Of a stretch of 64,000 nucleotides of DNA, positions 999 through 47,274 are shown piece after piece (position 1 is the stretch's first letter; each line of letters opens with the position of its first letter). The position numbers and the translations under genes are program-made. The stretch is from Bacillota bacterium. Its GTDB lineage: Bacteria; Bacillota; Sulfobacillia; Sulfobacillales; Sulfobacillaceae. A model generated the notes under the pieces. That model saw only the letters and a list, made by a program, of their open reading frames with translations, was not told where the DNA came from and searched no databases. The DNA is taken from assembly GCA_023512105.1 (NCBI GenBank), contig JAIMAE010000002.1, forward strand, positions 1 to 64,000. The letters run 5' to 3'.

Positions 999-1718
999 GG
1001 GGGCGGCGGCGCGTTGCCGGGCCGCCCGCTCCCGCCAGCAGCGGGTTCCGAGACCCCGGGATGCGGGGGTGCGACCCATCCGCGCGCGGGACGGCCTTTG
1101 TTGCCCACGGCTGCTACCGAGAAAACGGCCGCTCTGCGGCCGGGGCGGGGCTTGACGCCCATCATACCCACATTTCCATTCTGGTGATCCTGGGTCAATT
1201 TATCGCTAACGCTGACACCGCACGCCCTCCTGATCCCAAGCCCTGGATTCACAAAATATCTTTGGGGGCCCCTGACGAATCTAGGGTGGCATATCCCTGC
1301 AGAGGATATATCTCCCTTAGCGGGCAAACCATCTACCCCAAGATCGCGGTTCGGAGCCAGGCCTGAACGGAGTGGGCACCGTCCCTCACTAGGCGATCGA
1401 CGATTATGCGCAATGCCACTTTTCGCGTATAGCCGGTTGCACAGTGGAACCATGTCGCCAGTTCTATGGCCGAGACCGCAGGAGTCTTTGGTGGGTAGTA
1501 GGCCTGAAGCCCCACGTAAATGCCACCGATTGGCCTCCGTTGTTCCGTGCGTGGTGGCCAGCGGGTTACTGGCCGGATTTGGGGGAACGGCCCAGGCGGG
1601 CCTAGAGCGGGGTCGGGCAGCGGGGCCGTGGCCACCACCCGAGAGCGTCGGTGTAACAATCGCGGGGCGTGCTAACATAGACCCGACAGTACTGACCAAT
1701 GAACGAGGAAGGATTAGA
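999..1718. other. Intergenic stretch between IS110 end and GntR gene
   Basis: No convincing gene. The first part is GC-rich and probably belongs to the 3' flank of the IS110 element. Bases 1126-1167 are an inverted, roughly 88% match to 10029-10070, so they look like an insertion-sequence end. The open frames through 1170-1718 show no recognisable domain and the frame leading into the GntR gene has no ribosome binding site before 1719. Confidence 0.6.
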
Positions 1719-2450
1719 ATGTTCGATCGGAGCTCGTCAATTCCGCTGCACCTGCAAATCAAGACCCGTATCTTGGAAATGGTCCGTCAGACCCCCCCAG
1801 AGGACCGCGCCAAAGCGCTCTTTACGGAAACCGCTTTGGCGGCTCACTTTGGCGTTAACCGGTTGACAGTCCGCCAAGCGGTTACAGAACTGGTGCGCGA
1901 GGGCGTGTTATATCGTGTCCGCGGGAAGGGAACATTCATTTCACCCCCCAAGGTAGAAGGCCAATTGCAGCACATTGAGCACTTTCTGGAGGAATGGCGC
2001 GAGCAACAGCACGATCCCCAATGCGAGGTCTTGTTTTATGGCTGGGTCGCGGTACCCGAGCCTTATGCTGAGTGGCTCCAGATGACCCCTGGCAGCAAGG
2101 GGCTTTGTTTCCGGCGACTACGGCGTCTTCAAGGAGTCCCGCTAGCCCTGGACGTGCGATATCTTCCACCATTTTTTGGACACCTGTTGCAACATGAAGA
2201 TATTGTAGAACATCCCGCTATCGACGCCATCGTAGCGCGCACGAAACTAGCCATCCAGCGGGTGGAAATGCACATCGAAGCGGTGGCGGCGGGCGTCGCC
2301 GAGGCGGCTTGGTTAGCAGTGGAGGAAGGAGCGCCGCTTCTGCGCCGCTCGATTATCATTGCCGTCGGGAGCGGAGAACCAGCCATCGCGGGGTGGTCGT
2401 TATATCGGGGGGATCGTTATCGGTATCGTGTCGTGCTTCCACACGCCTAG
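1719..2450 (+). CDS. GntR/HutC-family transcriptional regulator
   Basis: A 243-aa regulator with an amino-terminal winged helix (TALAAHFGVNRLTVRQAVTE, then the wing YRVRGKGTFI, roughly residues 35-80) and a carboxy-terminal UbiC transcription-regulator-associated (UTRA) ligand domain. ATG 1719 is chosen because it follows a GAGGAAGGA ribosome binding site and places the winged helix at the normal distance from the amino terminus; the open frame further upstream has no such support. It lies 90 bp before the grd-like operon on the same strand, with inverted repeats sitting on the operon promoter, so it probably controls that operon in response to a small molecule. The ligand cannot be deduced. 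Confidence 0.88.
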   Translation: MFDRSSSIPLHLQIKTRILEMVRQTPPEDRAKALFTETALAAHFGVNRLTVRQAVTELVREGVLYRVRGKGTFISPPKVEGQLQHIEHFLEEWREQQHDPQCEVLFYGWVAVPEPYAEWLQMTPGSKGLCFRRLRRLQGVPLALDVRYLPPFFGHLLQHEDIVEHPAIDAIVARTKLAIQRVEMHIEAVAAGVAEAAWLAVEEGAPLLRRSIIIAVGSGEPAIAGWSLYRGDRYRYRVVLPHA

Positions 2451-2539: not shown

Positions 2540-3742
2540 GTGGCCTTGACCATACGACGCTATCGGCCTGAAACCGTCGCCGCCGGACCCTCCAACGGAT
2601 GGCGCGGCTCCCAACTGGTGATAGACCTTACCCAGCTAAAGGCTCATCTTGAAGCACGGATGCACATTCGTGTGCACGTCGAATTGGTCCCCCCCGAATC
2701 CGGTCGTGTGGTGCGAGATATCCGCGATCTCTGGCAAGTTCGCGCCAAGTTGGCACCAGCGGCTCTTTTGCCGTACGCATTGCCTGGCCAGCCACAAGAC
2801 GGGCGGGGAAGCGGTGTCACCATCGTGGTGGAACGCCTAGCGTTGTGCATTTCCGGGGAGGGAGCCGGTAACGTCACCCCTTGTATGCTCCCCATGGGGG
2901 ATCCGTCCCTCCCGCTGTCCGACCACTGGCTCCTTGAAGTAGCGCCAGCAATAGGCCCCGCATGGGACGAGTCGGACGAGGTGCGGATGAAGACTGCCCT
3001 GGCGGAGTGGATGCAGGCGGCGATCCCGGGACTCCAACCACCGCCGGGCTGTGTACAAGAGGAAACCTGGCAAGAGCCCGCCCCGACCGCCTCCCGGCAC
3101 CCCGAACGACCGGCGATCGGTCACTGCTATCTCGTGCAATCGCAGGGCTCTTTCCGTAGAACCTTCTTCCAAGGCAGTCCCTGCGACACGCTACGGCCAA
3201 CGGTCGTTAGTCCCTTGGTCATAATGGACGGGGCATTGGTCTCCAATAACTACGTGGTGTGTGCTAACCGTAACCCCACGTACTTTCACGCCGAAAATCC
3301 TCTCCTCCGCGGTCTTCTGCAACGACACGGCCAAGATCTCCAGATGGCGTCCGTGGTGCTTTTCACTGCCCCCGGCGACGAAGCCGCTAAACGCGCCACG
3401 GCGGCGGAGGTTGCCCAGATTGCCCGATCCCAATGCTGGGACGCGGCCGTGGTGACCAAAGAAGGTGGGGGCAACACCACCGTCGATCTCATGTTGCTCG
3501 TGGGCGCTCTGGAGGCTGAAGGGATATCCGCGGTAGGGATGGTCAACGAATCCGCCGGGCCCCAAGGGGACCAGCCCCCCCTAGTGGTGCATCACCCGGC
3601 GGCCGACGCCTTGGTGAGTACGGGGAACGTTGAGGCGGTCTGGCCAGGGGGGACAGATGCTTCCGGAGGGGCGCTGACCGCCTGGATCGCGGGAGCCACC
3701 AGTCTCCTCGGCGCGGGGCAGTGGGGCTGTGTCGAGGATTGA
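2540..3742 (+). CDS. Glycine/sarcosine/betaine reductase component B alpha/beta-like protein (GrdE-like)
   Basis: A 400-aa protein whose carboxy-terminal half matches the GrdE/GrdG/GrdI family: IMDGALVSNNYVVCANRNPT followed by FHAENPLLRGLL, then a TKEGGGNTTVDLML segment and ALVSTGNVEAVW near the end. In the family this precursor is processed to a pyruvoyl-bearing subunit that forms a Schiff base with the amino substrate. In known GrdE the cut is before a Cys in an Asn-Cys pair; here the corresponding place appears to read Asn-Asn-Tyr-Val-Val-Cys, so processing may differ. The amino-terminal third is diverged. GTG 2540 follows a GGTGGGGA ribosome binding site. It is the first operon gene, 18 bp before the GrdB-like gene. 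Confidence 0.82.
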   Translation: MALTIRRYRPETVAAGPSNGWRGSQLVIDLTQLKAHLEARMHIRVHVELVPPESGRVVRDIRDLWQVRAKLAPAALLPYALPGQPQDGRGSGVTIVVERLALCISGEGAGNVTPCMLPMGDPSLPLSDHWLLEVAPAIGPAWDESDEVRMKTALAEWMQAAIPGLQPPPGCVQEETWQEPAPTASRHPERPAIGHCYLVQSQGSFRRTFFQGSPCDTLRPTVVSPLVIMDGALVSNNYVVCANRNPTYFHAENPLLRGLLQRHGQDLQMASVVLFTAPGDEAAKRATAAEVAQIARSQCWDAAVVTKEGGGNTTVDLMLLVGALEAEGISAVGMVNESAGPQGDQPPLVVHHPAADALVSTGNVEAVWPGGTDASGGALTAWIAGATSLLGAGQWGCVED

Positions 3743-3760: not shown

Positions 3761-5044
3761 GTGCGGCTAGTCCACTATCTGAATCAGTTCTTTGGGCAAG
3801 TCGGAGGAGAAGAGGCTGCCGACACCGCGATTTTGGTGCGAGCGGGGGCCGTGGGCCCTGCGCGAGCCGTGGCAGCCGCCCTGGGAAACGCTGGGGAAGT
3901 CGTCGCCACCGTGATCGCCGGGGACAATTGGGTCAACGCCGACCTCGAGGCACGGGCACAACTGATTTGTGATGCGGTAATGGAGCACTCGCCGGACGTG
4001 GTGTTGGCCGGCCCCGCGTTTGGGGCAGGGAGGTACGGGGTGGCGGTCGGTGAGGTGGTCCGGCAGCTTACCGCGCGCGGGTGCATTGCGGTTGGGGCAA
4101 TGGCACCGGACAACCCGGCACGCGCACTCTACGCTTCCCGCGGTTATCTCGTACCCTGTGACCCAAGCGTGCGGGGAATGTCAGCGGCACTGTCCGATAT
4201 GATGCGATTGGCCATCGCCTTACATCGCGGGGAGGCGGTGACCCATGACCGCTTTGCCTACTATCCTCGGGGACGTCGGATCATGCTTCGCCATAACGCT
4301 CCCGCAGCTGAACGCGTCATCGCCTTGGCAGTGGCCAAAGCGCGAGGAGGGACGTACCGCACTGAGATACCCCGCCGGGCCTCTCTGGAATGGGTAGCCG
4401 CGCCGCCCGTCGCCTCCCTGGCCGACACCATCGTGGTGCTGGCCACTGATGGGGGGGTGGTCCCCTGCGGGAATCCCGATCGGATTGAGGCGTCTATGGC
4501 TACCAAATGGGGGCGGTATCCGTGGGAAGCCTTGACATGCCTTGAGATCTCGCATGGTGGCTATGACCGCCGGTTTGCCCAAGAGGATCCCTGCCGGGTC
4601 TTGCCCTGGGACGGTCTTGAACACTGGCGGGCCGTTGGGGTGATTGGAGGGGTCTTCCCATATTGGTATACCACCGCTGGCAATGCGACCGCACCAAGTG
4701 TGTGCGAGGCGATGGCGGCTCAGATTCTATCCGACATCGAAGCGATACGGGGACAAGTAGGGGTGTTGCTCACGTCGACCTGAGGCACCAGCACACGCTG
4801 CGGCGCAGCGTTAGCTCGGTGGCTTGAGGCGCACGGGGTGCCGGTAGTGCAGATCACCACCATGACAGGCGTGGCCAAAGCCTTCGGGGTGCCGCGAGTT
4901 TGGCCTGGTCATGGTATTGCCTTTCCCGTGGGGGATCCGGAACGGCCCCGGGAGGCTGAACGGGCTTGGCGAGTCGAATGGGTCCACGAGGCCCTGGCGC
5001 TGTTGACCCAAAGGGTGCCCGCACCCCAATCCAAGGAGGTCTAG
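3761..5044 (+). CDS. GrdB-like reductase gamma subunit, selenoprotein (UGA = Sec341)
   Basis: Component B gamma-subunit family (GrdB/GrdF/GrdH), about 427 aa if UGA 4781-4783 is read as selenocysteine. Signatures are LVHYLNQFFGQVGGEE at the amino terminus, LAGPAFGAGRYG, and CGNPDRIEASMATKWGRY. The text around the UGA is LLTST-U-GTSTRCG, matching the family motif TSTUGTCTRCG; the same frame stays open for 86 more codons of family-like sequence to the TAG at 5042-5044. A conventional gene caller would stop at 4783 and lose the active site. GTG 3761 follows a GGGGAGGGCGAG ribosome binding site. Sec is expected to attack the substrate-pyruvoyl adduct and pass the carboxymethyl group to selenoprotein A. 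The first Cys of the family motif is Ser here. Substrate (glycine, sarcosine, betaine or other) cannot be assigned. Confidence 0.88.
4784..4821 (+). promoter_or_regulatory. bSECIS-like stem-loop after the grdB-like UGA
   Basis: Directly 3' of the UGA, CACC (4786-4789) pairs with GGTG (4818-4821), AGC (4790-4792) with GCT (4814-4816), and CGCTGC (4796-4801) with GCAGCG (4805-4810) around a GGC loop. Position and size are those of bacterial SECIS elements that recruit SelB. Folding was done by eye. Confidence 0.6.
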
Positions 5045-5472
5045 CCATGGGCGGCGAGTCGTTCACCGAGGTCGGCGCGCGTCGCCGATGGAGCGCCCTA
5101 TGAGTCTCAACCGGGCGGGAGGCTCCTCCGAGTTCCTCCCGCGTACTGCCTACGCAGGCTCCGCGCAAGCCCTTTCGGTCGACTTATCGCCATTGTCCGC
5201 CGTCGGTCTTGGTTACCGAGGACCCGGCATCCGCGATGATGGGCCCCCGTCAGCCGCGCCGAGGTCGCACCTCGGCAGGAGCACCGAGGGATCTCTGGGG
5301 CTCATGCCGCGCTCCGGGTTGCGGCAGTTCGCGCCGCTGGGGCTAGTGTCCACCAAGGCCGGATCCTTAGGCGGTCGGGCCTGGAGGCTAAGCGCCACCG
5401 ACAGGCGTAGGTGACCGGTGAGTCGCGGCGGGAGTTGACGCGCTCACGGGACCTGAAGAGGAGGTCTGAGTA
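5045..5472 (+). other. Unassigned, hairpin-rich stretch inside the grd-like operon
   Basis: No recognisable protein. A strong ribosome binding site (AAGGAGGT, 5034-5041) precedes ATG 5047, but that frame hits UGA at 5101-5103 after 18 codons; reading through the UGA it stays open to TAG 5344-5346 without a known domain. Another frame is open 5088-5414 (108 aa), rich in Gly, Ser, Arg and Pro. Two strong hairpins stand out: 5258-5265/5269-5276 (8 bp, CGC loop) and 5305-5310/5321-5326 (6 bp, 10-nt loop). It may be a further recoded or decayed gene or a structured RNA. The ribosome binding site of grdC (GAAGAGGAGG) is at its 3' end. Confidence 0.45.
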
Positions 5473-6882
5473 GTGGCCGCAATCCACGGAATTGCTTATA
5501 TCTTGGCGCATGTGCCCGACCTGGTACGGTACGGGTCCAAGCCCTACCGTGAGGCGGTTCAGAATCCCACATGGTTGGAGGTCTTCGAGCCGCATCTCAG
5601 GACCAGCGAGGCAGCTCGGTCCTATCTGCCCCACCAGGTGTTCATCGGAGCGGAATCCCCGGAGGTGCTCAAGGCGACTCCGCGTCCTTGGCATAGGCAC
5701 CTTGCCGAGCCAGTCAGTCGCGGGCGATGGGGCTGGATCATAGAGGAGCCCTTGGTATACGCCCTGTTGCGCGCAGCAGACGTTGCCCAACTCGTGTGGC
5801 TCGAACCATCGTTCGAAGATCAGGCACGCGACCTCCTGGCGTCGCATCCGTTAACCCAGGCGCTTACATGGAGCCAGCCAGCGCCACGCCCGCGCGGCCC
5901 GAACGAGGTGGGAGGCGTGTTGCCGCTACAGTGGGGGAATCGGCTGGTGGGAGCCGTTCGCGGAGACCACCAAACTGACGAGGCGCTGACCGCCGGAGTT
6001 CTGCTGGAAAACCTGCTCAGCAAAGTGACTGGGTACTTGGCAATTCAAGCGCTGCGGGCGCTTCTGCCGGACTATCCATGGGGTGCCTTGCCTTACCTGA
6101 TTGGCACTGGGGAGGAGGCGATTGGCGACCGGTATCAGCGAGGAGGCGGGAATTTGGCGAAAGCAGTGGCCCACATGGCCAGCCTTCAGCAGGCGACGGG
6201 CTGCGACGTCAAGGCCTTCTGTGCGGCGCCGATCCACGCCATTCCAATTGCCGCTGGACTGGTCGATTCGGGTATCTACCCTCATGTGGTGCTGTTCGGG
6301 GGTGGGTGTCTGGCCAAATTGGGGATGAAAGTGCTCAGCCATCTTCGGGCTGATATGCCGATCCTGGAGGACGTGCTGGGCGCATTCGCGATGTGGGTAG
6401 GCCCAGACCAACCGGGGACGGCCCATATTCGCCGCGAGGCGGTAGGGCGACATCCGGTGGGCGCGGGGGCTCAACCTCAGGCCATCTATGAGGCGCTCGT
6501 GGCGGACCCTTTGCGACGCGTCGGGCTTACGATGCGCGACATCGACCGGTTCGGCGTGGAGATGCACAACCCGGACATCACGGAGCCGGCAGGCGGTGGG
6601 GATATCCCGCGGACCAACTATCGTACCCTGGCGGCCTTGTCCATCTACCATGGTGAAGCGTCTCGCCATGAGTTGGACGCATTGGTGGATCGGTGGAGCT
6701 ACCCAGGATTTTCGCCCACTCAGGGACATGTTGCAGCGGCGGTACCGGCCCTGGGGTGGATTTTAGAGGAGTTCCGGAATCATGGCGCGGGACGGGCCAT
6801 GTTGGTGGCCAAGGGCAGTTTGTTTTTGGGACGAATGACGCCCCAATCTGATGGATCCTCCGTGCTTTTGGAGGCGCAATGA
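5473..6882 (+). CDS. grdC: Glycine reductase component C beta subunit
   Basis: A 469-aa GrdC protein with a FabH/thiolase-like fold. Highly conserved stretches include LIGTGEEAIGDRYQRGGGNL, DVKAFCAAPIHAIPIAAGLV (probable acyl-accepting Cys), FGGGCLAKLGMK, MHNPDITEPAGGGDIPRTNY, GFSPTQGHVAAAVP and MLVAKGSLFLGRMT. In glycine reductase, component C takes the carboxymethyl-selenoether of GrdA and, through an acetyl-thioester, yields acetyl phosphate with its partner GrdD. GTG 5473 is preceded by GAAGAGGAGG. It is somewhat shorter than the usual 510 aa at the amino terminus. No GrdD gene follows; thioredoxin and grdA come next, so the acyl product may leave by another route or GrdD may be encoded elsewhere. 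Confidence 0.92.
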   Translation: MAAIHGIAYILAHVPDLVRYGSKPYREAVQNPTWLEVFEPHLRTSEAARSYLPHQVFIGAESPEVLKATPRPWHRHLAEPVSRGRWGWIIEEPLVYALLRAADVAQLVWLEPSFEDQARDLLASHPLTQALTWSQPAPRPRGPNEVGGVLPLQWGNRLVGAVRGDHQTDEALTAGVLLENLLSKVTGYLAIQALRALLPDYPWGALPYLIGTGEEAIGDRYQRGGGNLAKAVAHMASLQQATGCDVKAFCAAPIHAIPIAAGLVDSGIYPHVVLFGGGCLAKLGMKVLSHLRADMPILEDVLGAFAMWVGPDQPGTAHIRREAVGRHPVGAGAQPQAIYEALVADPLRRVGLTMRDIDRFGVEMHNPDITEPAGGGDIPRTNYRTLAALSIYHGEASRHELDALVDRWSYPGFSPTQGHVAAAVPALGWILEEFRNHGAGRAMLVAKGSLFLGRMTPQSDGSSVLLEAQ

Positions 6883-6908: not shown

Positions 6909-7256
6909 ATGAGCCTGGTAACCGAGGTAACCCGGGACGAGCTGGACCAGGAAGTACTCCGTGAGCCTGGCATCGTCGTGGTAGACGTTTGGGGTCCGCG
7001 TTGCGGGCCGTGTTTACAACTGATGCCGGTGGTGGAAAAGCTCGCGGCGGAATGGGCACCCATGGTCCGGGTAGTGAAGCTCAACAGCCAGACAAATGCG
7101 ATGTGGTGTGTGCGCCGCCAGGTTTTGGGCCTCCCGACGTTCTTGATGTTCAAGGACGGCAAGGAACAGGCCCGCCTGAGCGGGGACGTGACGCCGGGGC
7201 AACTGGAGACCTTCTTTCGCGAAGCCGCCCAACAAGCTTCCGGAGATAAACAGTGA
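6909..7256 (+). CDS. trxA: Thioredoxin of the grd-like operon
   Basis: A 115-aa thioredoxin with the active site WGPRCGPC and the cis-Pro loop [13 protein letters not shown]. The Trp-Gly-Pro-Arg-Cys variant differs from the general WCGPC site and resembles the specialised thioredoxins of amino-acid reductase operons, which reduce the selenenyl-sulfide left on GrdA after each turnover. It lies 26 bp after grdC and 26 bp before grdA. The ribosome binding site AAGGAGG is 12 bp from ATG 6909; an out-of-frame ATG at 6899 is nearer to it, so translation may be modest. No thioredoxin reductase gene is adjacent. Confidence 0.9.
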
Positions 7257-7282: not shown

Positions 7283-7765
7283 ATGTTAAGTCTTCGAGGC
7301 AAACGCGTCATCGTCATAGGCGATCGGGATGGGGTACCGGGCCCGGCCATTGAGGTCTGTCTACGGGCCGCCGGTGCCGAGGTGGTTCACGCCGTAACCG
7401 AATGTTTCGTGTGAACCGCAGCAGGCGCCATGGATCTCGACGAACAGGCGGAGATCCAGCGGGTGGCAACCCGGCATCCAAATCAACCGTTGTTGGTGAT
7501 GCTGGGATCCGCCAATGCCGACAGCGCGGAGATCGCTGCGCTGACGGTAACGACTGGTGACCCTACGTTTGCAGGTCCATTGGCCGGCGTCCCGTTGGGA
7601 TTGCCTGTCTATCACGTTTTAGAGTCAGAAGTCAAGGCCGTCATTCCCCCGGAGGTCTTCTCCGAACAGGTGGGAATGATGGAATTGGTTCTTGATGTTG
7701 CTGCTATTGAGGCGGCGTTGCGTCGAGTACGCCAGGAGGCAGGCGTCGACTCTTCACCGTCATGA
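7283..7765 (+). CDS. grdA: Glycine-reductase selenoprotein A (UGA = Sec44)
   Basis: A 160-aa GrdA read through UGA 7412-7414. Before the UGA the frame gives [20 protein letters not shown] and VTECFV; after it [17 protein letters not shown], then [28 protein letters not shown]. The motif [12 protein letters not shown] and Sec at residue 44 agree exactly with known GrdA. ATG 7283 follows a GGAGGAAG ribosome binding site. GrdA carries the carboxymethyl group from component B to component C on its Sec. The SECIS is not obvious by eye: only CCGC 7416-7419 with GCGG 7448-7451 was found. A conventional call would report only the 111-aa carboxy-terminal part from 7430. Confidence 0.95.
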
Positions 7766-7771
7766 GAGCAT

Positions 7772-7808
7772 GGCCAAGATCCCGGCAAGGGATCTTGGCC
7801 TCTTTGTT
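7772..7808 (+). terminator. Rho-independent terminator after grdA
   Basis: A perfect 12-bp stem (GGCCAAGATCCC 7772-7783 with GGGATCTTGGCC 7789-7800), GGCAA loop, followed by TCTTTGTT. It begins 7 bp after the grdA stop and ends the operon before the MFS gene. Confidence 0.9.
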
Positions 7809-7850: not shown

Positions 7851-9110
7851 ATGAAGTCGGAATTGCGCTATCTCTGGCTAGCCATTGGGCTCGGGTCGAT
7901 GGTGTACCTGACCAATTACACCGACAAAGTCGTGATGAGCAGCATGGGTCCCCACGTCATTCAGGCCTATCACTTTAGCAAGATTGAGCTCGGCGTCATT
8001 TTCACGGCTTTTGCCCTCACCTATACGTTTCTGCAGGTTCCGATCGCGTGGTGGGCCGACCGTACCGGGCATCGTCGGGGCGTCGCCGCGATGACGGCGT
8101 TTTATGGCGTATTTACCGTACTCAGCGGTATGGTGGCTAGCAATCTTGGGCTACTAACCGCCGTGCGAGCCCTGGTGGGCGTTGGCGAGGCCGCCTCGAT
8201 GCCGGCCGTAACAGGGGGGTTGACAAAATGGGTGCCAAAACCGATGCGTGGCTTGTCCCAGGGTGTGATGCACGCTTTCACGCGGGTGGGAGCTGCCATA
8301 ACCTTACCGGTCAGCGTCTTTGCCTTACTAGCGTGGGGAATAGGAGGTCCTTTTCTGGTATTTGGGGCGTTTACGTTGTTAGTCAGCGCACTGTGGTATG
8401 GCTTGTTTCGTGATCGCCAGTTGGACCCCGCTGCCCCCACCATGCGGTGGTCGTGGCGCCACGTTTTCGAGAATCAAAGTTTATGGGCCCTATGTCTTGC
8501 GGACTTCTGTTACTTTTACACCCTGACCATCTACTTAACCTGGCTGCCTAGCTTTTTGGTACTTCATCGTCATTTCACTTTGCTTAACGTAGGGATCTGG
8601 GGAGGGCTGCCGTTTTTGGGCGGTGCGTTGGGAGGACTGGTTGGGGGGCGTATCTCCGATTACTATGGGCGACGCACCGGAAACATGGCTTTTTGGCGCC
8701 GCATTGTGCCGTGCGTGGGAATGCTCGGTTCGGTCGCCTTGCTGTTGCCCGCTGCCTTTTCCCACAATCAGGCAGCGACGATTGCGCTGTTTACGGCGTC
8801 GTTCTTTTTCTTGGATGCTACCATCTCCGTCTTTTGGGCGATCGCCATGGACATCGGCGGGCCCTATGCCGGAACGGTGGCGGGGGTTATGAACACGTGG
8901 GCCAACATCGGCGGGATTGTCTCGCCCCTGGTATTCGGAATCTTGGTGCAATGGGGACATAGCTGGACACTGCCGTTCTTAGTGGCTAGCGCCTTAATGG
9001 TGGTGGGCTCCATTCTGGTATGGTGGATACGACCGGCAGAGCCGCTATTTGCAATCCCGGAGGGGTTGTCGAGTCCGTCGCTCTCTCAGACGAGTGGTTC
9101 AGGTAACTAA
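7851..9110 (+). CDS. MFS transporter (anion:cation symporter-like)
   Basis: A 419-aa, 12-segment major-facilitator protein. The opening MVYLTNYTDKVVMSSM, the loop 2-3 motif WWADRTGHRRG and GEAASMPAVTGGLTKW are typical of the ACS (hexuronate/glycerate-like organic anion) branch. ATG 7851 follows GAGGGGGT. It lies 40 bp after the grdA terminator on the same strand and probably has its own promoter; the position suggests import of a substrate of the reductase or export of a product, which is inference. The protein ends in a short hydrophilic tail. Confidence 0.85.
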   Translation: MKSELRYLWLAIGLGSMVYLTNYTDKVVMSSMGPHVIQAYHFSKIELGVIFTAFALTYTFLQVPIAWWADRTGHRRGVAAMTAFYGVFTVLSGMVASNLGLLTAVRALVGVGEAASMPAVTGGLTKWVPKPMRGLSQGVMHAFTRVGAAITLPVSVFALLAWGIGGPFLVFGAFTLLVSALWYGLFRDRQLDPAAPTMRWSWRHVFENQSLWALCLADFCYFYTLTIYLTWLPSFLVLHRHFTLLNVGIWGGLPFLGGALGGLVGGRISDYYGRRTGNMAFWRRIVPCVGMLGSVALLLPAAFSHNQAATIALFTASFFFLDATISVFWAIAMDIGGPYAGTVAGVMNTWANIGGIVSPLVFGILVQWGHSWTLPFLVASALMVVGSILVWWIRPAEPLFAIPEGLSSPSLSQTSGSGN

Positions 9111-10576: not shown

Positions 10577-11710
10577 CTATGATAACCCATAAAAGCGCCG
10601 GGCATTATCAGCGAGAATCTTTCGCTTCTGGACGTCGTTCAGTTGAGGGTGATTCGCGAAGTGGTGTGCCGCTTCTGGCTCCCGGTCATTGTGGGGGATG
10701 TCCGAAGCCCAGACGATGGCCTCGTCCCCGATCATTTCCAGCGTCGCCGGAAGCAGCCGCTCATACTCTTCGATACCAAAGAAGCATTGACCGCGGCGAA
10801 TGTATTCGCTGGGGCGCTCTTGGGCCCGGTACTCCAAGAAAGGAAGACCAGGGCGACGACGGCGTACGTCGAAGTAGTACTCCATAATTTCCAGCCAGTA
10901 AGGAACCCACCCTACGCCGGCCTCAAAAAACCCTACTTTCAAATGGGGGTGGCGATCCAAAACGCCTCCGGCGATTAAATGGACAAATGCGATCTGTACT
11001 TGAGCCCGGAAAGGAAAGGTAATCGCTGTAAAATTGGTGTCAAAAAGTTGGTTCAGGCCTGGTGCTGACCATCCGACGTGAATGATGAGGGGCAAGCGGT
11101 GAGCTTCCAAGGCGCTAAAAAAGGGGTCGAAGGCTGGGCGGTCGAGCGGTTCGTCGCGAACAGTCCCTAAAGTCATGACGCCCACTGCTCCGGCGGCTCG
11201 CGCCCATTCTACTTCCTTGACTGCGGCCGCGACGTCGGTCAACGTAACGACCGCCACCCATTTCAGACGCGGCTCGTTGCCTACAGCATCATCGATCCAA
11301 CGGTTGTAGGCTTGATACAGGGCTACTTCCAATCGAGGGTCGGAGGCCAAACTATACGCTGCCACAAACAAGGTGGGGTAAAGAACTTGAAGGTCAATGC
11401 CTTCGCGGTCCAGGTCGGCCACGCGTGCTTTGGGGTCGCGCAACTCTTGACTGTCTAAACTCTCCAGCTTGTTGGCAGCGGCTACGCTGAGCACGCCGTT
11501 GGCGGAGGCCGGGGTGCCAAAGACATGGCATCCTTTTCCCGTCAACTTGGGAAATACGCTGCCTTCGATCCACCACATGGGTTGTCCTTCTACTAACGTA
11601 ACCAACGGGCGCTTGGAGGACAGATCGGATGGCCAGTAGCGGTCGGAGAACGTCGCTTCCCATTCCTCCACGTGGGCATCAGCATCAATAACCGGATAGT
11701 GGTTAACCAC
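10577..11710 (-). CDS. Amidohydrolase_2-family metal-dependent hydrolase/decarboxylase
   Basis: A 377-aa protein of the ACMSD-like amidohydrolase-2 family. The amino terminus has the metal-binding pattern VIDADAHVEE (D-x-D-x-H), the middle has RVADLDREGIDLQVLYPT, then LPLIIHVGWSAPG (metal His), and the end VWASDIPHNDRE (catalytic Asp) and ILADNARRFYGL. Members hydrolyse or decarboxylate cyclic or aromatic acids using Zn or Mn. GTG 11710 follows AGGAGGTT. It lies 31 bp after a paralogous gene, so the two probably form an operon. Substrate unknown. Confidence 0.88.
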   Translation of the reverse strand: MVNHYPVIDADAHVEEWEATFSDRYWPSDLSSKRPLVTLVEGQPMWWIEGSVFPKLTGKGCHVFGTPASANGVLSVAAANKLESLDSQELRDPKARVADLDREGIDLQVLYPTLFVAAYSLASDPRLEVALYQAYNRWIDDAVGNEPRLKWVAVVTLTDVAAAVKEVEWARAAGAVGVMTLGTVRDEPLDRPAFDPFFSALEAHRLPLIIHVGWSAPGLNQLFDTNFTAITFPFRAQVQIAFVHLIAGGVLDRHPHLKVGFFEAGVGWVPYWLEIMEYYFDVRRRRPGLPFLEYRAQERPSEYIRRGQCFFGIEEYERLLPATLEMIGDEAIVWASDIPHNDREPEAAHHFANHPQLNDVQKRKILADNARRFYGLS

Positions 11711-11741
11711 AGCCAGAACCTCCTAATCGGGTGAAATGGTA

Positions 11742-12812
11742 TTAGCCCTGGAGTCGATAGAACGCTGCAACGTTGTCGGCAAAAATACGTTGCTTAGTTT
11801 CTTCGGTAAGGTCTTCCCGCTCGGCCAATTCCTGGATCTCGCGCTGAGCGATTTCGGGGTTTGACTCGTGCGGAAAGTCGCTGGCGTATAGCACTGCGCC
11901 TTCTCCAAGGCGGCTTAAGGCGTAGGCAAGAGTTTCCTCGGAACCTTCACAGCTAACAAAAACACGCCCCTCCCTTAGATAATCGCTGGGCTTCTTCTTG
12001 ACTAGGTCACTGAACTCGCGATAAAGTGCAGAATTCCAAATTTCGTAGGCTCGGTCCAGACGATCCATCATGAACGGAATCCATGCCGTGCCGGATTCTA
12101 AGAAGGCCATACGGATCGTAGGGAACCGTTCGAGTACGCCTGAGAGCACCACGCTGGTAAGCTGGATCATTTGGGCAAACGGATGCTCCAAGCTTTGTGA
12201 AGGGGCGAACTGGCGAAACGCCTCGAGCCCCAGTCCCCAGGAGGGTGCGCCATGAAAGGCCAGCGGGCATCCCAACCGCTCTGCTTCCTCGTAGATGGGC
12301 CAAAAGTCCGGTTCGCCGAGCGGCTTACGCACCCCTGCGTCGGCGCTGTTGGAAACCATCAGCCCCCCTACCATGCCAAGTTCCGTGACCGCCCGGCGCA
12401 GTTCCTTAGCTGCCTCTCCAGGGTCTTGCAGCGGGAGCAACGCAACGCCCCGGAGTCGCGAGGGGCTTACGCGGTGGTAGCGGTCGGCAAACCAGTCGTT
12501 ATATGCTTTCGACACGGCGATGGCCCAATCTGGGTCCTGGATCATACCGGCGGCTAAGCCCGCAGTCGGGTAAAGGACCGTCGATTCAATACCTACCTGG
12601 TCCATGAAATTAAGCCACGTCTGGGCCGTGATGTTATAGTCTTTATACATGGCGTTGCGAGCCAAGATAGCGCCGCGCTGGAATCCATCAAGGGTCGGAA
12701 AAAAGGGATAGCCTAGCAACACTGGGTTGCCGCGATAAGGTGGGTCAAGGTATTCCAAGAGGTCGGCGTCACGTTCGATTACGTGGCCATCGGCGTCCAG
12801 TATCTTGAACAT
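11742..12812 (-). CDS. Amidohydrolase_2-family protein, paralogue
   Basis: A 356-aa amidohydrolase-2 enzyme: FKILDADGHVIERD at the amino terminus, LNFMDQVGIESTVLYPTAG, CPLAFHGAPSWG (metal His) and VLYASDFPHESNPE near the end with FADNVAAFYRL closing. The start at 12812 is preferred over the open frame to 12905 because the metal motif belongs within the first ten residues and an RBS-like GGCGAG precedes it. It is the upstream gene of the pair. Two different paralogues side by side suggest a two-component enzyme or successive steps on related ring substrates. Confidence 0.87.
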   Translation of the reverse strand: MFKILDADGHVIERDADLLEYLDPPYRGNPVLLGYPFFPTLDGFQRGAILARNAMYKDYNITAQTWLNFMDQVGIESTVLYPTAGLAAGMIQDPDWAIAVSKAYNDWFADRYHRVSPSRLRGVALLPLQDPGEAAKELRRAVTELGMVGGLMVSNSADAGVRKPLGEPDFWPIYEEAERLGCPLAFHGAPSWGLGLEAFRQFAPSQSLEHPFAQMIQLTSVVLSGVLERFPTIRMAFLESGTAWIPFMMDRLDRAYEIWNSALYREFSDLVKKKPSDYLREGRVFVSCEGSEETLAYALSRLGEGAVLYASDFPHESNPEIAQREIQELAEREDLTEETKQRIFADNVAAFYRLQG

Positions 12813-13387
12813 CTCGCCATCGCCCTTCCCTAATCTTTTGTATGTGAGGTGGTGTCGATCTGAACCACCCAATCTCTTGCCTAAAAATACCGTATTGCGC
12901 TTCAATTATATCCGAAAGCTTTGAGCGTGTAAACTTTCTTTGAGGAGGGTGTGATTTAGGGGAGCGATTTTCGCCAGCAGGATCGGCGGGGTGAACGGGC
13001 GGAGGTGCCCCCATGCCCCCGCCTCCTCGTAGGAGGTGCCGCCGTCGTCGGCACCCGGGTTGTCAGGATTGCCGGCTCCCGCGGGCGGGGACGGAGCACC
13101 GGGGCCCTCTGCTTTTCGCGATGCGTTTGCCCTGTCCCAGCGAAACCCTACGGCTGGGCTCCGCGACGAGCGACCACGCGTGCGATTTCGCAAAAGCTGT
13201 ACGCCACTGCTACCACCCGGGTTCGAAACCAAAATTGTACGGTCCGCTGACCACTATCTTCCGAAACTTGCTACCTTCACCGTTCAGGACAGCGAGAGGG
13301 GCTACGGCACTTTTCCGCCAGTTCGTTTGACGCCTGAAGAGAGCGCGGTATGCCCTCAAGTCCGACTTTTGTGATGTTAACACTCAG
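12813..13387. other. Intergenic stretch with repeated IS-end-like sequence
   Basis: No gene identified. Bases 12944-12965 are an exact inverted copy of 36071-36092 with similarity continuing several bases inward. The rest (12970-13380) is open in three plus frames, but the products are low-complexity Arg/Pro/Gly stretches without a known domain, probably an eroded mobile element. Confidence 0.5.
12944..12965 (+). repeat. 22-bp exact repeat, partner of 36071-36092
   Basis: Contains GAGGGTGTGATTTAGGGGAG; the identical 22 bases occur at 36071-36092 on the other strand, and the next ten bases (ATTTT, GCC) are nearly shared too. Both lie in gene-free, decayed sequence, so this is probably the end of an unrecognised insertion sequence. 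Confidence 0.6.
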
Positions 13388-14176: not shown

Positions 14177-15410
14177 AGTATAACGATTCCTAAATAACGC
14201 TCCGTTCTAGCAGGTCCAGCTCGTCCAGTTTATACCGCCAGCGGAAGGGGACGGGGTGCTCGTTGATCTCGGCCAGGTATTGCTCCAGCCGCGTGACCAA
14301 CTCCGCCTGGGACTGGACCCAGAGATGTCGGAGGAATACCTTACTGAGCTTGGCAAAGAAGACTTCGATGAGATTCAGCCACGAGCTATGCTTGGGCGTG
14401 AACACGAATTCGAAGCGATTGGGGCGGGTGGCCAGATGCGCTTGGGTCTCCCGGGAGGTATGTGTAGAGTGGTTGTCCAGGACGATCTGAATCTTGGCCG
14501 CGGGGTCATATTTCGCATCCAAGGCCTGCAGGAACTCCACGAACTCGTGGCTCCGACCGATGACCTCGCCGGTGGCCCAGTCAATGCCGGCCAGCAAGCA
14601 CCCCGTCCCAAACCGCTGGTACGCATGGTCCCGCTGCCACGTCCCTGCCGGCCCCTCCGGCTGGGGCGGCCGATCCGGGGCCGTTGTCCCGATCGCCTGA
14701 ATCCCCGGTTTCTCGTCATAGGACAAGCGGAAGGTCGGCCGCTCGCCGTCGAAGGCAAACTCGACTGGCTGGATGACGTGCAAGACCCGCACCAGTTTGG
14801 CGTCGAAGTCCGGGTCTCGCCGTTCCAGATAGGACTGTACCCGGTGCGGATGGGGCGCGTGGGCCTTCAGGAGCTTGGCGACGGTGCCCGGGCCCCAGTG
14901 CGCCGCCACGGGATGGCCTTCGGCCTCCGCCGTCTGGCGGATAGGGGCGGCCAGCAGCCGCTGCGTCCACAGCTCTTGGGCATACCCGAACGCCGTGGGT
15001 TTCTGGCAGGCCAAGCCGATTATCCAGGCCCGACCCGCCGGCGTCAACTGCTGCGGACGCCCCGGCCGCGGGCGGTCGGCCAGCGCGGCCAGGGGGGGGC
15101 CGCCTCCAGGCTCAAGTCGACGCACCGCCGGACCTTGCGCGTGGAAAAACCGGTCTGGCAGTGAATGGCCCACACTCTCGCTCCGGCCGCATAGGCCACC
15201 AGGATCTGGGCGCGTTCTACCGTTTGGCGGGGCGCGGTGCGGGAACGGACCAGATGTTCGAGCCAGTCCTGGTCTTCGGGGGTGTGCACCAACAGGGGTT
15301 TGGCCCGGGGAGCGGCTGGAAGCTCATCCTTTCGCAGGCCTACTCCAGCGTACCACCCCGGGCCTATCATATCCAGAATAACGAAGCGATCTACTAGTAG
15401 ATCCATTACT
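14177..15410 (-). mobile_element. IS630-family element
   Basis: An element of roughly 1.2 kb with one transposase in two frames. Its left edge meets the truncated thiolase within the sequence CTCTAGTATAACG, which offers the TA target expected for IS630. The right edge is near the 16-bp palindrome 15388-15403. Clear terminal inverted repeats could not be fixed by eye, so the limits are approximate. Confidence 0.6.
14190..15406 (-). pseudogene. IS630 transposase in two overlapping frames
   Basis: The amino-terminal HTH part (frame 15406 to about 15095: LLVHTPEDQDWLEHLV, TVERAQILVAYAAGARVWAI) and the DDE part (frame 15120-14190: LADRPRPGRPQQLTPAGRAW, VQIVLDNHSTHTSRE-type Asp motif, FVFTPKHSSWLNLIEVFFAK) join only by changing frame. 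The crossover is at a run of eight G on the plus strand (15092-15099), read as eight C. That is either a polymerase slip or a programmed slippery site, known in several IS families. The exact start codon is uncertain. Confidence 0.8.
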
Positions 15411-15415
15411 AAATA

Positions 15416-16808
15416 GGGCTCTACGATAGAACTTGTGGGATCTGACTCCCTTCGGAGTTCCGGGAGACGGGTTTTCTCCTACGGTAGAGGGACTGGGGGG
15501 AGTGGAATCGAAAAAGGCCGCAATGTTCTGCGGCAGGAAAGGGCAGGAAGCACTGCCAATGGAGTGTTTTGACCAACATGGCTCCAAGGAGTGCTTCCAT
15601 GGATCCGTCGATCACAACCCTGTTCCAACTCGACGGGTGGGAGGTGACCGCCGTGGAGCAGACCGCTACGGGCTGGCCGGGGACCATTGAGGCGCCCCGC
15701 CCGGTCCAGTCTCCGCATTGCGGGCACCCGCGGCGGCATCGGCATGCTACGGTTCCGGCCCGCGTGGTCCCCCATCTGTGGGTAGGCCTCCGCCCGCTGA
15801 CCGTCACCTGGGTGCCCCACCGGTGGCGGTGTGCCGCTTGTGGGCGCACCGTTTGCCCCCGCCCGGCGGGTTTGCGCCCCTGGCAACGGTGGACGCCGGC
15901 GGCGCAAGAGGCGGCGTTAATCCTGCTCCGGGAGGCGAGCTTCCACCGCGTCGGCCGCCTGTTGGGCGTGTCCGCCGCCCGGTTACGGCGGCTCGTGGAC
16001 CGGGTCGTCCCGGCGGAAGACGCGACGTGGTGGGACCAACCCGGCGACTTCGTCCTGAGTATCGATGAACACAGCTTTCGGGGCCAGGACCTGCTGATCA
16101 CGGTCGCGTTGCAAGCCCCCGAGCGCCGGCTGCTCGCGATCTTGGGCGACGATCGGCTGCGCTCCCTGGATGCCTGGTTCGCCCAGATTCCGGCCGATGT
16201 GCGGGCGCGGATTCGCGCCGTGACCGTGGACCTCAAGCGCGCGTATGCCCGCGTCGTGCAACGCTGGTGCCCCCATGCTCAGGTCCTCGCGGACCCGTTT
16301 CACCTCGTCCAGGACGCCAATCGGCGCCTGGAGGAGATCCGACGCCTCGAACCGGAGGAAAGCCGGACCCCTATTCCTCGCTGGCCGGTGGTCAAAGGGC
16401 AGGAACGCCTCACCGCCCAGCAACAGGCGCCGTGGGTTGCCATCGCGGAACGGTGGCCGGCCTTGGGCCCACGCTACCAGCGGAAAGAAGACTTGCGGGC
16501 GCTCCTGACGGCGAAGACGCCGGAAGAGGCCCGCCAGGCCTGGGACCGCTGGCTGTGCAATGCCGATGCCTGTGACGACGCGGAGGGCGCAGTCTGGGCC
16601 CGCACGATGCGGCGTTGGCGCCGCGAAATCCTCGGGCATTGGACCCAGGTCCAGCGGTGGACCAATGGCTTCATGGAGGGTCTACACACCAAGATCAAGC
16701 AACTTAAACGGGTCAGCTATGGCTTTCGCAATCGGGACCGTATCGGCGCAAGAGGTTCCTGGGTTTCCTGCCACCGACCGCGATCCCACAGTTATTGACG
16801 TAGAGCCC
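15416..16808 (+). mobile_element. ISL3-family insertion sequence with terminal inverted repeats
   Basis: A 1393-bp element bounded by GGGCTCTACG (15416-15425) and its complement CGTAGAGCCC (16799-16808). The similarity continues inward (AACTTGTGGGATC against AACTGTGGGATC), about 26 bp of imperfect inverted repeat. No 8-bp target duplication is visible in the flanks, so neighbouring DNA was probably rearranged after insertion. Confidence 0.85.
15599..16801 (+). pseudogene. ISL3-family transposase, frameshifted near the carboxy terminus
   Basis: From ATG 15599 the frame encodes a zinc-finger amino terminus (CGHP, then WRCAACGRTVCPR), HTH, and DDE core (FVLSIDEHSFRGQDLL, TVDLKRAYARVVQRW, LADPFHLVQDANRRLEE, TNGFMEGLHTKIKQLKRVSY). 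After GFRNRDR the frame drifts; the expected tail YRRKRFLGFLPPTA is found one base over, ending at the TAG 16799-16801 inside the right repeat. A single-base deletion near 16740 explains this. The in-frame product stops at 16798 with an aberrant tail, probably inactive. Confidence 0.85.
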
Positions 16809-43469: not shown

Positions 43470-45322
43470 TGTACTGCCTCCCCTTCTCCTAGGAATCCGA
43501 GCGCCCAGGCCGACTCAATGGCGTTGGCGGCCGTCTGCCCCAGCCCACAGATCGATGCGTCCCGCATCACCGCCGCCAGGTCGCGATGACGCTCCCGCTC
43601 CTCGTGCCAAGAAGTCAAGGGACGTCCCGCAACCACGCGCTCGACCAATTCCCATTGCCGTTCAGTGCCGACGCGGCAGGGCACGCATTGGCCACACGAT
43701 TCCTGGCGGAAGAAGCGAGCAATCCGGCGCACCGCCTCCCGAAGGTCGCTGGCGTCGTCGAAGACGATCACCGCCCCGGAGCCCAAGGTGGCCCCGCGGG
43801 TCCGAACCGCCGCGAAGGAGAGCGGAAGGTCGAGAGAATCCGCTCCCACGAAGCTGCCGGCGGCTCCCCCGAGGAGGATGGCCTTCAGCGAGCGTCCAGG
43901 CCTCAGGCCCCCGGCTGCCTGGAGCAATTCGCCCAGGGTGGTGCCGAACGGAACCTCAAACAACCCCGGCCGCCCCACGGCTCCGGAGACGCAGAACAGT
44001 CGGGTGCCGGTGGAATCCGCTGTGCCCAGGGAGGTGTAGGCCGCGGCCCCTAAGCGCAGAATGACCGGTACGTTGGCGATCGTCTCGACGTTGTTCACCG
44101 CAGTAGGCCGTCCAAACAGGCCGTGCACGGTGGGAAAGGGGGGCTTGTTGCGCGGCTCGCCGCGCTTGCCTTCGATGGCGTTAAACAGCGCCGTCTCCTC
44201 TCCGCAGACGTATGCCCCGCCCCCCGAGCGCACCTCCACATCGAAGGCGAAGGGCTCTCCGAGCACCGACTCTCCTAGGTAGCCCCGCTCCCGCAAGGTG
44301 GCGATGGCGGTCTCAAGCCGCGCACGGGCCAGCGGATACTCCCCACGGAGGAAGATGTATCCCTTGCTGGCGCCCACCGTCCACCCCGCAATGGTCAGCC
44401 CTTCGAGCACCGCGTAAGGGTCTTGCTCCAACAAGAGGCGGTCTTTGAAGGTACCGGGTTCCGACTCGTCGGCGTTTAACACCACGTATCGGGGCAGATC
44501 AGGACTTTTGGCCACCGCCTCCCATTTGGCGGCGGTGGGAAATGCGGCGCCGCCGCGCCCTAGCAACCGAGCCTCCTTGAGCTCGCGCAACACCCCTTCC
44601 CGGCCGAGGGCCAGGGCTCGCCGCAGCCCGGAGTAGCCCCCCGCCGCTCGGTAGGCGTCCAGAGAGGTGGGATCGAGGCGACCCATCCGCTCCGTCAACG
44701 GTTGCGGATGGCGGTCGGTCCGGTAGATGAAAGGAAGCGACTCTGGCCGCGGCCCTTCCTCCAGGCTCTGCATCACCGTCGCGGGAGTTTCAACCGCTCC
44801 GAGGCCAAAGGAACTGGCCCCGGAGCGCTGCACGAAGACCGCTGGCCCCTCGGCGCACCGGCCGAGACACGGGCTGCGGTGCCAGGCCACCGCCCGCTCT
44901 CCCTCCCCGGCGCCCTCCGGTCCCCACTCGCGTTCGCAGGCTTCAATCAAGCGTCCTGCCCCCGCCTGTTGGCAGGCCAAGTCGTCGCAGATGTGCACCA
45001 CCGCAGGGCTTGCAGCCTCCAGGTGGAGAAGGGCATAAAAGCTGGCCACCCCATAGGCTTCGGCGTAGGGCAAGCGCAGGCGCCGAGCCACCTCCCCCAG
45101 GGCGGCTGGACTGACCCAACCGATGCGCTCCTGCAGCGCCAACAGCACCGGCAAGAGCCGGTCGCGGCCATGCGGCCGCTCCGGCTGCACCGCAACCCGC
45201 AGTCCCTCGGCGGTCCGAGCCGCCCCGTTCCCTGCCCCCGCAGACCCCAGGATCGCGTCTATGACAGTCCGCTCGGAAGCGGTGGGCTCCATTTCCATGG
45301 GGTTTTGGGTCTCTGTCATCAT
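43466..45322 (-). CDS. Fused NuoE-NuoF-type diaphorase subunit of formate dehydrogenase
   Basis: A 618-aa fusion. Residues about 40-190 are NuoE-like with four cluster Cys (HICDDLACQQAGAG and SPCLGRCAEGPA). The rest is NuoF-like: EARLLGRGGAAFPTAAKWEA (NADH site), VLNADESEPGTFKDRLLLEQ (FMN site), VRSGGGAYVCGEETALFNAI, GEPRNKPPFPTVHGLFGRPT and the [4Fe-4S] motif QESCGQCVPCRVGT with SICGLGQTA. It reduces NAD(P)+ with electrons from formate, or the reverse. ATG 45322 overlaps the stop of the catalytic subunit gene by 4 bp, and its own stop overlaps the next ATG, so the three genes are tightly coupled. Confidence 0.92.
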   Translation of the reverse strand: MMTETQNPMEMEPTASERTVIDAILGSAGAGNGAARTAEGLRVAVQPERPHGRDRLLPVLLALQERIGWVSPAALGEVARRLRLPYAEAYGVASFYALLHLEAASPAVVHICDDLACQQAGAGRLIEACEREWGPEGAGEGERAVAWHRSPCLGRCAEGPAVFVQRSGASSFGLGAVETPATVMQSLEEGPRPESLPFIYRTDRHPQPLTERMGRLDPTSLDAYRAAGGYSGLRRALALGREGVLRELKEARLLGRGGAAFPTAAKWEAVAKSPDLPRYVVLNADESEPGTFKDRLLLEQDPYAVLEGLTIAGWTVGASKGYIFLRGEYPLARARLETAIATLRERGYLGESVLGEPFAFDVEVRSGGGAYVCGEETALFNAIEGKRGEPRNKPPFPTVHGLFGRPTAVNNVETIANVPVILRLGAAAYTSLGTADSTGTRLFCVSGAVGRPGLFEVPFGTTLGELLQAAGGLRPGRSLKAILLGGAAGSFVGADSLDLPLSFAAVRTRGATLGSGAVIVFDDASDLREAVRRIARFFRQESCGQCVPCRVGTERQWELVERVVAGRPLTSWHEERERHRDLAAVMRDASICGLGQTAANAIESAWALGFLGEGEAVQ

Positions 45323-47274
45323 GTAGGCACCTCCATGGTTTGGACGTCTTGGGCTGGTTGGGCCGGGACAGCCAGCTTCTCCACCCGGATGGCGGTGGCC
45401 TTAAACTCCGCCGTGCCCGACTTGGGATCCCATCGGTCTACCGTCAGCAGGTTGGTGTTGACCTGATCCGGATAGTGGAAGCTGAGGAAGGCCAAGCCCG
45501 GTCGAAGCGCAGGATCCTGGTGGACCGGCACCTCCAGGGCGCCGCGCCGCGAGACCACCCGCACCCGCTCCTCCTCTTGCAAGCCCAGTGCCCGCATATC
45601 TTCTGGCGCCAGATGCAAGTGCTCTCCCTTCGCCAACGGCGGATGATAGCGGCCGCTCTGCACCCCCGTGTTGTAAGCCTCCAGTCGCCGCCCGGTGGTC
45701 AGGCGGATCGGGTACTCGTCGGATAAGGCGTCGACCGGTGGTTCGTACTGCACTGGCTGGAAGGGAGCCAACGGCCCTTCCACCGGATCCTTCCACAGGC
45801 GTCCATGCAAAAACGGCGTGCCCGGGTGGTCTTCGGAAGGACACGGCCACTGAATGCCTCCCATCGCCTCCAGCCGGTCGTAGCGCATCCCGCGGTGCAT
45901 GGGAGACAGGCTGCGACATTCATCCCAAATCTGCTCCGCGGTCAGATGGCCCCAATCGTGTCCCATCCGCCGGGCCAGTTCGGTCAGGATCTCGATGTCA
46001 TCGCGGGCCCCTTCGGGTGGCACCAAGGCCCGATGGACGCGCTGGACCCGCCGTTCGCTGGAGGTCACCGTGCCCTCGGTCTCCGCCCACGACGCGGTGG
46101 CCGGCAACACCACCTCTGCCAGCTCGGCTGTCTTGGTAAGAAAGATGTCCTGGACAATCAGGTGGTCCAGTTGCGACAGCAGCCTGGCCGCTCGTCCGGC
46201 ATCGGCCTCGGACTGGGCCGGATTCTCCCCTATCACCAAAAGGCCGCGCAGGTTGCCAGAGGCCATGGCCTCGAACATCTGCGAGATGTGCATTCCCCGC
46301 TTGGGCTGGATGGTGCACCCCCAGGCCGCCTCAAAACGAGCCCGCGCCGCGGCATCTTCCTCGATGTCCTGAAAGCCCGGCAGCTTGTTGGGCAGCGCTC
46401 CCATGTCCCCTCCCCCTTGCACGTTGTTTTGCCCGCGCAAGGGGTTCAACCCGGAGCCGTAGCGCCCGACATGGCCGGTCAACAAGGCCAGGTTGATGAG
46501 TGCAAACACGTTGTCGACGGCATTGTGGTGCTCGGTGATGCCAAGCGTCCAACACAACTCCGCTCGGTCGGCGCGAGCGTAATCATGGGCGAGCTGACGG
46601 ATGGCCCAGGCCGGAACCCCGGTGACCTTCTCCGCCCACTCCAAGGTGTAGGGCTCGACCGCCTCGCGGTACTTCTCAAACCCAGTAGTCGCCCGCTCGA
46701 CAAACTGCCAATTGACCAATCCGGCGTGGATGATCTCCCGTCCCACGGCGTTGGCCAACGCGATGTCGGTCCCCACGTCGAGGCCAAGCCATAGGTGAGC
46801 CCACTCAGCCGAAGCCGTCCGCCGGGGGTCGACCACGTAGAGCCGAGCGCCATTCTTCACCCCCCGCAACACGTGGTGGTAAAAGATGGGGTGAGTCTCC
46901 CGGGCGTTAGATCCCCAAAGAATGATCAGATCCGTTTCCTCAATTTCGCGATAGGAGCTGGTTCCGCCCCCCGCACCAAACACCGTCGCCAGACCGACGA
47001 CGCTGGGTGCGTGTCAGGTGCGGTTGCAGCTGTCGATGTTGTTGGTGCCCAACACCACCCGTGCAAACTTTTGGGCTAGGAAGTTCACTTCGTTGGTGGC
47101 CTTGGAACAACTGAAAATCCCCACCGCGTTTGAACCGTAACGCGCCACGACTTCGGCCAACCCTTCAGCGGCCCGGTCCAAAGCCGCCTCCCAACTCGCC
47201 GGCTTGAGCTGGCCGTCTCGGCCTCGCACCAGCGGCTGGGTCAACCGTCCTGCGTGACTCAAACGCAAGTTCAT
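45319..47274 (-). CDS. Formate dehydrogenase catalytic subunit, selenoprotein (UGA = Sec87), lacking its own [4Fe-4S] domain
   Basis: A 651-aa molybdopterin oxidoreductase body when UGA (complement 47016-47014) is read as selenocysteine. The context NNIDSCNRT-U-HAPSVVGL matches FdhF/FdhA (family NNIDSCARVUHAPSVAGL). Before the UGA it reads VARYGSNAVGIFSCSKATNE; after it DLIILWGSNARETHPIFYHH, NALRGQNN-type NPLRGQNNVQGGGDMGALPN, and the molydop_binding end TGRRLEAYNTGVQSGRYHPP. ATG 47274 begins at the point that normally follows the Fe4S4 domain, which sits on a separate gene. Sec should ligate Mo or W and oxidise formate to CO2 or reduce CO2. Standard calling would give two pieces, 47014-47274 and 45319-46983. 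Confidence 0.92.
46972..47011 (-). promoter_or_regulatory. bSECIS-like stem-loop in the formate dehydrogenase gene
   Basis: Two bases after the UGA, CGCACC (47011-47006) pairs with GGTGCG (46977-46972), and CGTCG (47002-46998) with CGACG (46988-46984). The apical loop contains GGTCT, as in the E. coli fdhF element that binds SelB. Confidence 0.75.

Follow-up and report, generated by a model that had tools for sequence, protein, structure and literature searches.

The 64,000-nt stretch analysed here (the window; contig JAIMAE010000002.1 of a Sulfobacillaceae draft assembly) carries a gene resembling the GrdB subunit of glycine reductase whose frame is interrupted by UGA, raising the question of whether this codon is a stop or is read as selenocysteine (Sec) and what kind of reductase the gene would then belong to. 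Translation of 3761–5044 gave one in-frame stop alone, the UGA at 4781–4783 in the context LLTST-U-GTSTRCG, beyond which 86 codons stay open up to a TAG (5042–5044), exactly as described in an earlier note made from the sequence. Alignment of the read-through product confirmed that the family match passes through the UGA: TIGR01918 covered residues 2–419 of 427 (319 bits, cut-off 65, E = 4e-95), and PF07355 scored 298 bits (cut-off 22).

Conservation of the codon was assessed in a homologue set comprising 80 loci from named genomes together with loci from genome searches, with TGA read as open. TGA occupied the Sec site in 122 of 122 GrdB sequences covering it (window gene and paralogue counted), with no Cys or other sense codon among them; since the collection was gathered by similarity to these proteins, Cys forms may still occur elsewhere. 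One further sequence (L070) ended before the site. Two grdB genes at locus L163 escaped a regular-expression screen for the Sec motif but, as judged by eye, had TGA too, in LTGT-U-GTGTRCG. No homologue combining a true stop with loss of the downstream part was seen, and other Sulfobacillaceae had no full-length gene.

The paralogue lies in a second operon on contigs C20 (L020) and C90 (L181), which have an identical 77-nt end within grdC. This operon encodes an MFS carrier, an FAD oxidoreductase, GrdE, GrdB, GrdC and GrdA; its GrdB has the same U-GTSTRC motif and its GrdA also contains UGA, giving two UGA-Sec genes. The two GrdB copies are 37% identical, so the second operon is not a recent copy.

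A two-part stem-loop directly after the UGA had also been proposed, and this was borne out by folding. The 46 nt from the UGA (4781–4826) gave a fold of -25.6 kcal/mol (z = -3.4) that none of 200 shuffles equalled; when 45 nt were recoded synonymously, only 0.03% of the variants folded equally well (p = 0.0003). The upper stem (4795–4801/4805–4811) closes a GGC loop, and the lower stem pairs 4786–4792 with 4814–4821. Across 120 sequences the upper stem (positions 16–21 with 25–30) was 93–100% paired, one pair alternating between U-A and C-G, and 119 of the loops read GGN; the covariation score, calculated from 21 divergent members, was 0.224 versus at most 0.069 for slid partners. The 37%-identical paralogue has a SECIS of the same shape.

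The long lower stem was peculiar to the two grdB copies of this genome (window 4781–4826; L020 5059–5104), other family members being without it (-25.6 and -27.4 kcal/mol; median -11.5), and between the two copies a pair in it changes from C-G to G-C. In this genome selD and fdhA likewise fold into two stems, lower and upper, a shape that the SelB of this lineage may favour. The hairpin after the GrdA UGA was weak (z = -1.2), and Rfam at its gathering threshold gave no match within the window.

A search for the decoding machinery, suggested in the earlier note, recovered selC (a tRNA-Sec with UCA anticodon), SelB and a Sec-type SelD with a UGA of its own. SelA gave no match with two models in the draft (404 contigs, 97% complete). 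A strong SelA match was present in 29 of the 33 other Sulfobacillaceae genomes searched, one of the same genus included, which makes an assembly gap the likely cause of its absence here. Tetranucleotide profiles of the window and of the contigs with tRNA-Sec, selB and the second operon were correlated at r = 0.89–0.93. Independent evidence of Sec decoding comes from outside the operon, from a formate dehydrogenase alpha subunit (FdhA) whose UGA precedes a hairpin (z = -2.8) and would lie ahead of the start that ordinary gene calling assigns to fdhA. As a separate observation, several genomes of the class encode shorter proteins (L071-L083, e.g. L073, L075, L077) with an open frame of about 250–300 aa, one in-frame TGA and about 30% likeness to the C-terminal part of GrdB; these are perhaps PrdB-like selenoproteins.

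Were the UGA a true stop, the locus would be a pseudogene or encode a 340-residue protein only. The missing SelA and the use of TGA as an ordinary stop within the operon, at the end of grdE, would fit such a reading, but it has to contend with the family sequence kept in the 86 downstream codons, the identical layout of the paralogue and, above all, TGA in every homologue covering the site and a SECIS under selection, and on these last two grounds it was rejected as highly improbable. An AlphaFold2 model (mean pLDDT 90) also speaks against it, in that residue 341 would sit at the helix head inside the C-terminal domain, in a turn between strand 332–338 and helix 342–357, with modelled strands 362–366 and 379–382 in the read-through part; a truncated product would, on this model, miss the active site together with the last portion of the C-terminal domain. 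No solved structure matched by sequence, and Foldseek returned generic matches only (TM-score about 0.2). Reading of UGA throughout as another residue was rejected as well, because grdE and grdA both terminate normally at a TGA. What computation establishes is the Sec site, its SECIS and, apart from SelA, the Sec machinery. Sec at the GrdB-type site, as the earlier note had it, agrees with the invariant TGA, the covarying SECIS stem, tRNA-Sec, SelB and Sec-type SelD, and 3761–5044 is supported as a genuine Sec-containing GrdB-type subunit by its homologues, its SECIS, the machinery and the other UGA-Sec genes.

Table 1. Annotated features of the window
Feature	Coordinates	Strand	Basis
GntR/UTRA-type regulator upstream of operon	1413–2450	+	Pfam GntR and UTRA
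GrdE-like subunit of component B, without pyruvoyl-forming cysteine	2540–3742	+	PF09338 5e-50; alignment of 117 GrdE
GrdB-like selenoprotein, 427 aa, Sec341, motif U-GTSTRC	3761–5044	+	TIGR01918 and PF07355 matches
UGA codon read as selenocysteine (codon 341)	4781–4783	+	TGA in 122/122 homologous GrdB covering site
Bacterial-type SECIS hairpin	4782–4825	+	Folding, recoding, covariation
GrdC (component C beta, FabH/thiolase-like)	5473–6882	+	NF040746 499 bits, cut-off 450
Thioredoxin	6909–7256	+	PF00085
GrdA, selenoprotein A, 160 aa, motif CFVU, Sec44	7283–7765	+	PF04723 207 bits over 1–147
UGA codon for Sec44 of GrdA	7412–7414	+	Sequence and GrdA matches
Intrinsic-terminator-like stem-loop 3' of grdA	7772–7800	+	12-bp stem, T-rich tail
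MFS transporter, organic-anion symporter type	7851–9110	+	PF07690; best NCBIfam TIGR00893, below cut-off
Formate dehydrogenase alpha subunit (FdhA), Sec	45319–47274	-	UGA 47014–47016, motif NRT-U-HAPSV

The make-up of the operon, and the parts missing from it, were likewise established by computation (Table 1). The PF04723 match of GrdA spans one TGA, and NF040748 gave the read-through GrdA 213 bits (cut-off 130). The conserved GrdC cysteine is present in the window GrdC and in 92 of 92 homologues. The true start of the GntR/UTRA gene is probably about 300 nt downstream of its first possible codon; at locus L089 such a gene likewise precedes grdE. Between grdB and grdC lie 426 nt without clear coding (5047–5472), a segment with no second copy in the genome; the corresponding gap in the second operon is about 50 nt. 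Two adjoining Amidohydro_2 family genes were seen downstream (10577–12905, minus strand). Viral contigs gave no result.

Compared with clostridial GrdB, the earlier note was correct that Ser replaces the first Cys of the motif: the first 30 clostridial genes compared read UGTCTRCG, with Cys at +3 where the window protein has Ser. UxxSxxC instead of UxxCxxC was found in the window GrdB and six other loci, the seven comprising both copies of this genome, four betaproteobacterial loci and one deltaproteobacterial locus. Further GrdB members have Gly, Asp or Ala at the first-Cys place, and UxxCxxC is therefore a hallmark of the canonical branch and not of the GrdB family at large.

A second departure concerns GrdE, whose pyruvoyl-forming site is defined by the GrdE 242–266 peptide (PMC9908766). 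In an alignment of 117 GrdE, the consensus SGNCVSAC corresponded to SNNYVVCA in the window protein, which has Tyr at the pyruvoyl-Cys position and has lost the second conserved Cys as well. The GrdE partner was Cys-less in 7/7 Ser-type loci, and both cysteines were present in 83 Cys-type loci. Two groundwater Chloroflexi loci, L163 (7713–11449, 13494–14768) and L165, have two grdB and two grdE-like genes side by side, their GrdE being Cys-less.

GrdD was the missing part. NF040747 gave no match above its cut-off in any of ten genomes with Cys-less GrdE, this one among them (0/10), versus 4/5 pyruvoyl-type genomes; the sole PF02504 match of this genome was plsX, beside fabD and fabG. Among fetched loci with GrdC, GrdD accompanied 36/44 of pyruvoyl type versus 1/9 others (Fisher p = 1e-4), the exceptions being L129, with Cys-less GrdE yet GrdD, and the 8/44 pyruvoyl-type loci showing no GrdD. 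Transporters near operons with Cys-less GrdE were mostly of organic-acid type: MFS carriers adjoin both operons of this genome, tripartite tricarboxylate transporter parts those of L116, L158, L183 and L089, and sodium:sulfate/dicarboxylate-symporter type carriers those of L117 and L154; at L163 the neighbour is instead a binding protein of peptide type. Since pyruvoyl loss changes once on the tree, Ser-type GrdB, Cys-less GrdE, missing GrdD and carrier type are not independent traits and trace back to few evolutionary changes. Their co-occurrence was accordingly rejected as independent evidence, and an independent-pairs test was uninformative.

On the tree, the pyruvoyl type formed one supported group, and five Ser-type GrdB from Beta- and Deltaproteobacteria formed one clade (support 100/99). 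The trees disagreed on the window gene and its paralogue, both of which have very long branches: a careful 47-row tree set the window GrdB beside Gly-type L089/L090 (96/97) and did not resolve the position of the C20 copy, and holding all seven Ser-type GrdB together raised the likelihood by 49.6 over a short free search. The earlier proposal of a subgroup of its own thus stands for the five proteobacterial loci, with the window gene and its paralogue not securely in it, and as its defining mark the Ser-for-Cys change gives way to the clearer and wider difference of pyruvoyl-less GrdE with missing GrdD.

Full-length grdB was rare within the class, and its absence elsewhere in the Sulfobacillaceae suggests that the window grdB was acquired by transfer. 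Transposase genes at both sides of the operon region (150–998, IS110-type; 14190–15173, minus strand, DDE_3-type; 15569–16798, ISL3-type) agree with such a gain.

Component B of glycine reductase generates a carboxymethyl-selenoether, the two-carbon unit goes on to an acetyl thioester on component C, and acetyl phosphate is formed by GrdC and GrdD (PMC10298544, PMC9908766). The window operon retains the GrdB Sec, the GrdA Sec, thioredoxin and the GrdC Cys, and is without GrdD and without the pyruvoyl group that serves for free amines. Judged from its sequence, the complex is probably neither a glycine nor a sarcosine reductase, given the Cys-less GrdE and a genome with no GrdD. That this is simply a sequence-diverged component B of a usual glycine, sarcosine or betaine reductase appears unlikely: it would explain why GrdA, GrdC and thioredoxin adjoin grdB and why GrdB matches TIGR01917, NF040794 and NF040795, and betaine reductase is also without a pyruvoyl proprotein (PMC10838667), but these matches, at 283–313 bits, fall far under the curated cut-offs of 602–800 (283 against 602 for TIGR01917, the glycine reductase equivalog), GrdE has no pyruvoyl cysteine, the draft assembly yielded no GrdD, and the adjoining carriers are MFS rather than amino-acid or betaine type.

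The explanation we favour, and consider reasonably probable as a whole, is a Sec-dependent GrdB reductase that would act on a carboxylic acid with a non-amine leaving group and work without GrdD. SelB and tRNA-Sec would insert Sec341 by way of the SECIS hairpin behind the UGA, and GrdB with the GrdE-like protein would form the substrate-binding component B. The substrate may be an imported carboxylic acid, from whose alpha carbon Sec341 would displace a leaving group that is neither a primary nor a secondary amine (a halide or another); as betaine GrdI also has no pyruvoyl group, a quaternary amine may be the leaving group. The carboxyalkyl group would then move to Sec44 of GrdA and leave selenium as a thioester on the GrdC cysteine, GrdA being reset by thioredoxin, and the product would be released as free acid or acyl-CoA, not as a GrdD-made acyl phosphate. 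We infer leaving group, substrate class and product release from the gene neighbourhood and the missing residues. Pyruvoyl-less, GrdD-less operons were seen in genomes of Bacillota, Betaproteobacteria, Deltaproteobacteria, Chloroflexi and Rokubacteria, and we tentatively suggest, as a possibility only, that operons with these two traits constitute a separate, widespread class of Sec-reductases that cleave non-amine groups and release acyl-CoA or free acid from GrdC.

Automatic annotation would cut short both GrdB genes and GrdA, hiding the active sites in a selenium pathway that spans two operons. Cys-less GrdE, missing GrdD and organic-acid-type carriers predict, in soil and groundwater genomes, a whole branch of 'glycine reductases' for which amino acids are not the substrate. 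Should this branch strip small acids of halides or similar groups, it would bear on selenium use and dehalogenation, and on the reading of genomes with grd genes as Stickland fermenters. Sec-containing GrdB is already known; what is new is the variation seen in the pyruvoyl-less, GrdD-less operon, which stands close to the fluoroacetate reductase FarEB. No description of Ser-type GrdB with pyruvoyl-less GrdE, its own GrdA and GrdC and no GrdD was found in the literature searched, which left most subscription journals outside.

Among known systems, glycine reductase GrdB/GrdE of Clostridium and Eubacterium shares with the window operon the family, the Sec site LTST-U-GT-x-TRCG, the GrdE neighbour, the GrdA, GrdC and thioredoxin partners and an upper SECIS stem at the same place; the window GrdB is 37–44% identical to 28 aligned homologues, but differs in the Ser for the first UxxCxxC Cys, and its operon in a GrdE without pyruvoyl Cys and in that no GrdD was found. 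D-proline reductase PrdA/PrdB is a distant homologue with a UxxC motif; its PrdB model has 238 positions and gave the window GrdB 46 bits (cut-off 300), and PrdA/PrdB acts on a pyruvoyl adduct. Betaine reductase GrdH/GrdI resembles the window pair in joining a Sec GrdB-type subunit to a non-proprotein alpha subunit (PMC10838667), whereas the GrdH model scored 300 bits (cut-off 775) and the window operon is without a betaine carrier. The fluoroacetate reductase FarB/FarE of Cloacibacillus porcorum offers a Sec GrdB with altered CxxC (FarB lacks it), a FarE that, like betaine GrdI, is no proprotein and is without pyruvoyl cysteines, an adjoining MFS carrier (farA) and reliance on GrdA (PMC10838667). 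By this analogy the window operon could encode a fluoroacetate/haloacetate-type reductase in the strict sense, which would be one particular form of the favoured non-amine reductase, and the FarE model NF053623 does give the GrdE of L116, L109 and C20 230, 180 and 135 bits. We nonetheless regard it as somewhat less likely even than the diverged ordinary reductase, in that the window GrdE reaches 32 bits against a FarE cut-off of 675, one of the two cysteines of the motif persists in the window GrdB, the sequence gives no pointer to halides, and farACEB includes a radical-SAM gene (farC) that the window operon is without, and has no GrdA or GrdC, both of which the window operon carries.
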